NCBI GenBank assembly: GCA_024276935.1
Contig: JAJRWH010000063.1
Location: 1-59,441 of the forward strand
DNA from: Deltaproteobacteria bacterium
Lineage (GTDB): Bacteria; Desulfobacterota; Desulfuromonadia; Desulfuromonadales; Geopsychrobacteraceae
Reading direction: 5' to 3'
DNA length: 59,441 nt
The notes below the pieces were generated by a model that made no database searches, was not told the DNA's origin, and saw nothing but the letters and a program-made list of their open reading frames with translations. The position numbers and the translations under genes are program-made. This document shows positions 1 through 1,849 of this stretch, piece by piece (the stretch's first letter is position 1; each line of letters opens with the position of its first letter).

Positions 1-138
1 CTCGCGGTGGACACCCTTGCCGTCCGGCTAGCGGTTCCCGTCATCAGGGTCCGCAGAGGACTTGCACCTCCAAGTCACCATTCAGCCACCACGGCTAAAT
101 GGATGGTGCTTACGCACCACGCGCCCTGCCGGGCGCAC
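1..138 (-). mobile_element. Group II intron, 5' end (class C type), runs off left edge
   Basis: Read on the minus strand, the intron starts at position 138 with GTGCGCCCGGC, matching the GUGYG 5' end of bacterial group II introns and the GUGxGCCCGGCA start of class C ribozymes such as that of Oceanobacillus. Further in come a GGTGCAAGTCC stretch and then GCCGGACGGCAAGGGTGTCC, which match conserved domain I elements. The upstream exon is the rho-independent terminator of pckA, and class C introns are known to insert just behind terminator hairpins. Only about 138 nt are visible. The rest of domain I, any reverse transcriptase ORF and domains V/VI lie outside the window, so activity cannot be judged. 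Confidence 0.88.
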
Positions 139-142
139 CAAT

Positions 143-175
143 AAAAAAAGGCGACCGATTATGACCGGTCGCCTT
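143..175 (-). terminator. Rho-independent terminator of pckA
   Basis: On the minus strand a 10-bp stem (AAGGCGACCG paired with CGGTCGCCTT) with an 8-nt loop is followed by a run of seven T. It begins 25 nt after the pckA stop codon. The group II intron starts four nucleotides beyond the T-run (exon end ATTG), so this hairpin is also the likely insertion target. Confidence 0.92.
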
Positions 176-199: not shown

Positions 200-1777
200 T
201 TACAACTGGGGACCATACTTGGTGAAGTCAACATCGCCAGGAATCACATATTTCTTGAAGTTCTCAACAAACATTCCGGCAAGTTTTTTGGCCGTTGCAT
301 CAAAATCGACCTTGTCTTCCCATGCATTGCGCGGATTAAGCAAATTGGCTTCAACACCGGGCAATTCTTTGGGAATGTGCAATTGGAAAAACTGGGTCTG
401 GTCAAATTCGACATTGTTGATCGACCCATCAAGAATAGCATTGATACAGGCGCGTGTTGCCTTGATACTCATCCGCTTGCCAACGCCATAACCACCACCA
501 ACCCAGCCGGTGTTGACAAGGTAGGCATTGACGCCATGTTCTTCGAGCTTCTGGCCAAGTAACTTACCGTAAACGGTCGGATGCAATGGCAAAAAGGCCT
601 CTCCGAAACAGGCCGAGAATGTTGCCTGAGGCTCGGTGACGCCACGTTCGGTTCCGGCAACTTTCGCCGTATAACCAGAGAGGAAGTAGTACATCGCCTG
701 CTCTTTGGTCAATCTGGATACTGGCGGCAAGACCCCGAAGGCATCACAGGTCAAAAAGATAACGTTCTGGGGGTGCCCACCCTTAAGGTTCGGCTCGTGA
801 TTTGCGATATGTTCAATGGGGTAGGAAACCCGGGTGTTCTCGGTTTTACTCCCATCATCATAATCAATTTTGCCCTGAGCATCGGCAACCACATTTTCGA
901 GGAGCGCATTACGCTTGATAGCACCAAAGATCTCAGGCTCATTCTCTGCCGAAAGGTTGATACATTTTGCATAACAACCACCCTCGAAATTGAACACACC
1001 ATCGTCGTCCCAGCCATGCTCGTCATCACCGATCAGCTTTCGTTTCGGATCTGTTGACAGGGTGGTTTTTCCGGTGCCCGAAAGTCCAAAAAAGAGTGCA
1101 ACATCTCCGGCTTCACCAACATTGGCACTACAGTGCATGGAAAGAATATTTTCCAGAGGCAACCAGTAGTTCATCATGGTGAACATCCCTTTTTTCATTT
1201 CGCCGCCATACCAGGTGCCGCCGATAATAGCGACATTCTTCTCGATATTGAAGACAACGAAAACGTCGGAGTTCAGACCATGTTTCTGCCATTTTTCATT
1301 GAGATAATTGCTGGCGTTGTAAATGGTAAAGTTCGATGTAAAAGCCTCAAGCTCTGCAGCTTCAGGACGGATAAACATATTGCGGACAAAGTGTGACTGC
1401 CAGGCAAACTCGGTGACAAAACGGACACTCTTGCGGGTTGCGGGATTCGATCCACAAAAACCATCTGTCACATAAAGGTCTTTCCCCGCCAGATAGGCGA
1501 GGGTGTCGGCATAAAGCTCATCAAAAACTTCGGGACTGACCGGCTGATTGATTTTGCCCCAGGCAATATTGTCCTGTGAGGGTGCCTGTTGAACAAAATA
1601 TTTGTCCTTGGGTGAGCGACCGGTAAATTTTCCGGTATCAACCATCATGGTGCCATTATCAGAAACAGCCCCTTCCTGACGGTCCTGCTCATGCTTGAAA
1701 AGCTGATCATAGTCGAGGTTGTGGTAGAGGGTACCGACGCTTTCCAGCCCCAGATCTGCTGCCTGCAATTGACTCAT
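200..1777 (-). CDS. pckA: Phosphoenolpyruvate carboxykinase (ATP)
   Basis: Cytoplasmic enzyme converting oxaloacetate + ATP to PEP + CO2 + ADP at the entry to gluconeogenesis. The product is 525 residues, normal for the ATP-dependent family. Visible motifs are RSPKDK near residue 54, the P-loop GLSGTGKTT near 231 (kinase-1a), and GDDEHGWDD just after it (kinase-2, metal binding). The ATG at 1777 was chosen over an upstream in-frame start because AGGGAG lies at good spacing before it and the family N-terminus matches [11 protein letters not shown]. It is a single gene with its own terminator, and a hairpin at 1850-1881 separates it from the upstream cytochrome gene. Confidence 0.97.
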
Positions 1778-1849
1778 CTGAAAACTCCCTGAAGGAAAAC
1801 GGTAATAATACAGAGCGGACCGAAGCAAACATCCGGTTTTGGCCCGACA

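Follow-up and report, generated by a model that had tools for sequence, protein, structure and literature searches.

A class C group II intron copy at the pckA terminator of a Desulfuromonadales draft genome

Class C (IIC) group II introns are self-splicing mobile elements whose insertion just behind terminators is known biology of the class, as stated in two papers that both cite Robart 2007 (PMC4424553; PMC8919778). A preference for the lagging-strand template has also been reported for them (PMC8919778; PMC4424553). Their boundaries follow the consensus GUNYGCCNRGCAUGG...CCUACYCGAU (PMC4028801), and the catalytic triad of domain V is given as "CGC for some introns" (PMC4424553). Terminators are occupied by other introns as well, since types g6, U1 and U2, which are close to class C, occur behind them (PMC8919778). 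In this study, we analysed a window of 59,441 nt, which is the entire contig C36 of a draft assembly (131 contigs, 2.9 Mb); its position 1 is therefore the end of the contig. The element at this end almost certainly arose by retrotransposition of a class C group II intron that is present in multiple copies, and its insertion behind pckA is ordinary, well-documented class C behaviour.

The two sides of the insertion

The features at the left end of the window are as follows.

1 to 138, minus strand: 5' part of a class C (IIC) group II intron, start of domain I, GTGCGCCCGG...; the same 138 nt occur at seven places in this genome, and relatives with complete introns have a more diverged version
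139 to 142, minus strand: final 4 nt of the 5' exon, ATTG, the putative IBS1; all copies of this genome have NTTG, and pairing with the EBS1 loop is predicted from relatives
143 to 149, minus strand: T7 tract of the pckA terminator, as read from the sequence
148 to 175, minus strand: hairpin of the pckA intrinsic terminator, the insertion target; 12 pairs including two T of the tract, 4-nt loop, -20 kcal/mol, z -7.4 against shuffled sequences; orthologous hairpin in same-genus genomes
200 to 1828, minus strand: pckA, ATP-dependent phosphoenolpyruvate carboxykinase (TIGR00224, 791 bits, cut-off 590)

On the minus strand the junction reads AAGGCGACCGGTCATAATCGGTCGCCTT TTTTT ATTG/GTGCGCCCGGCAGGGCGCG, where the slash marks the exon/intron boundary. 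The last exon base is position 139 and the intron starts with the G at position 138, exactly 4 nt beyond the T-run, where the initial annotation had placed it. The extent of pckA is counted from a TTG start, and the true start may be an ATG near position 1776. It had also been stated that the intron is cut at the window edge, and this is indeed the case, as the window is a whole contig of a draft genome and the break in the assembly falls within the intron. A scan of the window alone gave no Rfam match, because the 138 nt end before the modelled part of domain I. Intron and pckA lie on the same strand; therefore, transcription of the intron from this side would, on sound grounds, require read-through of the pckA terminator.

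Contig C130 supplied the far side: it opens with domains V and VI at the 3' end of the intron (CCTACCCGAT) and, after a short spacer, runs on into thiL (identified by TIGR01379). In seven same-genus genomes the sequence orthologous to this 3' flank is the pckA-thiL spacer together with thiL, and in all seven no intron interrupts the run from pckA through its terminator to thiL, which represents the empty site. Thus, C36 and C130 form the two flanks of a single insertion, with the exons ...TTTTTTTATTG on the 5' side and AAATGC... on the 3' side. Leftward extension, as proposed in the initial annotation, ends at position 1 of C36, and the domain V and 3' end expected from it were both found on the partner contig by orthology. 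Consequently, C36 can be joined to C130, and intron copies account for many of the contig breaks in the draft genome. In G001, which belongs to another species of the genus, a contig stops exactly behind the pckA terminator (TTTTTTTTG; C150:6089, end of L112); this contig end may represent an independent insertion of the intron at the same terminator.

Copy number, class and alternative explanations

The 138-nt 5' end was detected at six further places of the source genome (97-100% identity), each directly behind a different terminator, and this recurrence identifies it as an element boundary and not a chance match. Six of the seven copies begin within about 60 bases of a contig start and the seventh lies at the end of its contig. 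Domain V was found by Rfam Intron_gpII (RF00029) above threshold at eight contig ends. All eight 3' ends carry domains V and VI with CCTACCCGAT, share the terminus ...GGAGGACGGCGGGGGTAACCCCGCCTCCTACCCGAT and continue into unique sequence. The source genome therefore contains at least eight near-identical copies, at which the draft assembly is broken, and this near-identity suggests a recent spread. Complete copies were not assembled in this genome, and the bin lacks the middle of the intron, with most of the reverse transcriptase (RT) and with EBS1. The best-extended 3' fragment (C42) reads in frame into the RT C-terminus (REAHAFRSAFNGRGPWWNAGASHMNLACPTSYFSKAGLFSYMTQFHPFRHTS, then stop), and the 3' fragments point to an intact RT in the source genome. 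The base just 3' of the intron varies across the eight flanks of this genome (L025-L032; 3 T, 3 A, 2 G), and IBS3 pairing seems to be loosely constrained in this intron family.

The class was assigned from complete introns of relatives that share this 5' end. The finished genome G039 contains four of them, each 1934 bp long, and G035 (1845 bp) and G041 (1929 bp) contain one each. Rfam group-II-D1D4-3 and Intron_gpII were detected in the three full copies scanned (L084, L075, L079), and D1D4-1 in two of these. The full copies encode an RT/maturase that consists of RVT_1 and GIIM only (TIGR04416); in the domain search of these proteins no endonuclease domain was found. In the PDB, the RT is closest to GsI-IIC (477 bits) and to the IIC protein of E. 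rectale (374), far ahead of LtrA of class IIA (150) and 6me0 (130), which we take to be a IIB intron protein. In a maximum-likelihood tree, with a partial and long-branched LtrA as outgroup, the RT groups with the IIC proteins (support 91/99). Domain V (GAACCGC-CGUGUACGG...CACGGUGG; fold z -6.1) has the catalytic triad CGC, which marks IIC. The 5' boundary GTGCGCCCGGCAGGG agrees with the class C consensus at 14 of 15 positions, and the 3' boundary CCTACCCGAT matches CCUACYCGAU exactly. The proximity of the RT to GsI-IIC, the Rfam matches, the CGC triad and the boundaries together support the initial assignment to class C, and with it the proposal that a group II intron of this class occupies the pckA terminator.

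For class C, a short EBS1-IBS1 pairing of 3-4 bp was looked for. Matches were observed in three G039 copies (CATA-TATG) and in G046 (CAAC-GTTG), and the match was poor in G041; EBS1 of the source genome was not assembled. Overall, the comparison for coevolution of EBS1 and IBS1 gave a mixed picture across the relatives.

Shortened copies also occur in relatives, namely in G020 (651 nt), G043 (849 nt) and G039 (262 nt). The one in G020 (L074 558-1208) is an ORF-less class C intron with intact-looking domains, and no group II RT was found in this 100% complete genome. ORF-less orphan introns are nearly unknown in bacteria (PMC4424553), and the G020 intron may be a dead relic.

Such short copies raise the question whether the pckA-site copy might itself be an internally deleted, ORF-less relic instead of a complete RT-coding element, the more so as its middle is absent from the assembly. 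However, an assembly would often have bridged a short copy, as in G020 and G039, whereas here the contigs break on both sides. Moreover, the C42 3' fragment retains the RT C-terminus in frame, while the 3' fragment of C130 itself is too short to decide. A relic is therefore unlikely at this site. It is still harder to believe that the element is an intron of the IIC-attC type whose main targets are integron attC sites. Plasmid relatives of its RT with about 59% identity adjoin sul1/qacEdelta1, and a Geobacter intron is listed as IIC-attC (PMC7923331), but all seven sites in the source genome are terminators with T-runs and none of those examined resembles attC. In addition, the 5' exon ends in NTTG and not in TTGT, and insertion at TTGT/T, as at attC, was not encountered. 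Finally, window and contig end together in this draft assembly of 131 contigs, and the end of C36 might be a chimeric mis-join that only seems to place the pckA terminator beside intron sequence. This is hardly conceivable, as the junctions, seven independent ones at the 5' end and eight at the 3' end, stop at the same intron base and the flank on C130 is orthologous to what lies downstream at the pckA locus. Retrotransposition of a multicopy class C intron remains by far the best explanation.

Terminator targeting, replication and a second intron lineage

Insertion sites were scored with a fixed rule that demands a stem of 6 or more pairs, 4 or more of them G-C, a loop of 3-10 nt, a stem end 3-16 nt before the insertion and 4 or more T among the following 8 nt. 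All seven sites of the source genome satisfy it, as do 36 of 40 sites overall, compared with 182 of 8000 random window positions (2.3%); of the four sites that fail, at least L055 and L065 still have a hairpin by eye. These counts agree with the earlier statement, known from the literature, that class C introns use terminator hairpins as targets, and they supply the further copies at terminators that had been called for.

Orientation was examined in the finished genome G039, which starts at dnaA. The first half of this genome holds four copies, all on the plus strand, and the second half holds one, which is on the minus strand, so that all five are co-oriented with replication. Likewise, in G004, a finished genome of the genus of the source genome, pckA is found 26 kb from dnaA and is co-oriented with replication. 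The orientation in G039 fits a preference for the lagging-strand template, but genes, and hence terminators, themselves share this bias.

A second intron was found on contig C26 (GTTTGCCCAGCG...CCCTACTCGAT; 2115 bp, domain V triad AGC), directly behind a terminator. Its RT of 422 aa (L018:1319-2587, minus strand; L018 is C26:39000-43500 of the source genome G000) is the only RT found in the assembly. It was considered as the RT of the pckA-site intron and rejected, because the C26 intron differs in its ends (GTTTGCCC...) and in its domain V, and its RT comes from a separate clade: together with its G041 homologue, the C26 RT falls outside the sampled class C clade. Across the order, 16 of 18 C26-type copies with recognisable ends lie behind a terminator-like element. 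The finished genome G089 has 12 near-identical copies, all 12 behind terminators and all 12 co-oriented with replication; from the strands of these copies the origin was predicted near 1.1 Mb, and dnaA was then located at 1,123,927. In L116 (G029), the 3' end of a C26-type intron is followed by gtttgcccag, the start of another, which represents a tandem insertion. It is possible, although on balance we doubt it, that terminator targeting defines a group of introns that is wider than class C or distinct from it. The ends of C26-type introns resemble the class C consensus and g6, U1 and U2 have already been reported behind terminators; therefore, this lineage is at most a modest extension.

Proposed mechanism and comparison with known systems

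The mechanism of IIC introns is established knowledge (PMC4424553; PMC8919778), and the following steps are proposed for the pckA site on this basis. A ribonucleoprotein of intron RNA and RT/maturase would recognise the hairpin of the pckA terminator together with the short IBS1 (ATTG). The intron RNA would then reverse-splice just behind the T-run into the same-sense strand, exposed at the replication fork, and would be copied into DNA by cDNA synthesis primed from the fork. Priming by the fork is probable because the RT has no endonuclease domain. The insertion spares pckA and its terminator, parts pckA from thiL and is probably neutral for pckA. Expression of the intron would rely on read-through or on other copies, and the family may still be active. 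The locus is a clean natural case of how class C introns spread behind terminators and break no gene.

In its boundary consensus, CGC triad and endonuclease-less RT, the intron resembles the class C introns B.h.I1, GsI-IIC and the E. rectale IIC intron, and it shares with them the insertion just behind intrinsic terminators, the multicopy state and the co-direction with replication. It departs from the class C consensus at one position, where the pckA-site intron has GCAGGG for GCAUGG. Compared with GsI-IIC, it belongs to a Desulfuromonadales sublineage with a clearly separate RT, which has about 64% identity to its nearest plasmid homologue. The RT is also related to those of the IIC-attC introns (S.ma.I2, Geobacter Ge.s.I1), with about 59% identity to the copy beside sul1/qacEdelta1. 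However, in contrast to these, the introns of the source genome target terminators, an attC context was not found at their sites, and their IBS1 is NTTG instead of TTGT. The C26 lineage, with an RT outside the sampled class C clade and insertion behind terminators, may be compared with types g6, U1 and U2 (PMC8919778).
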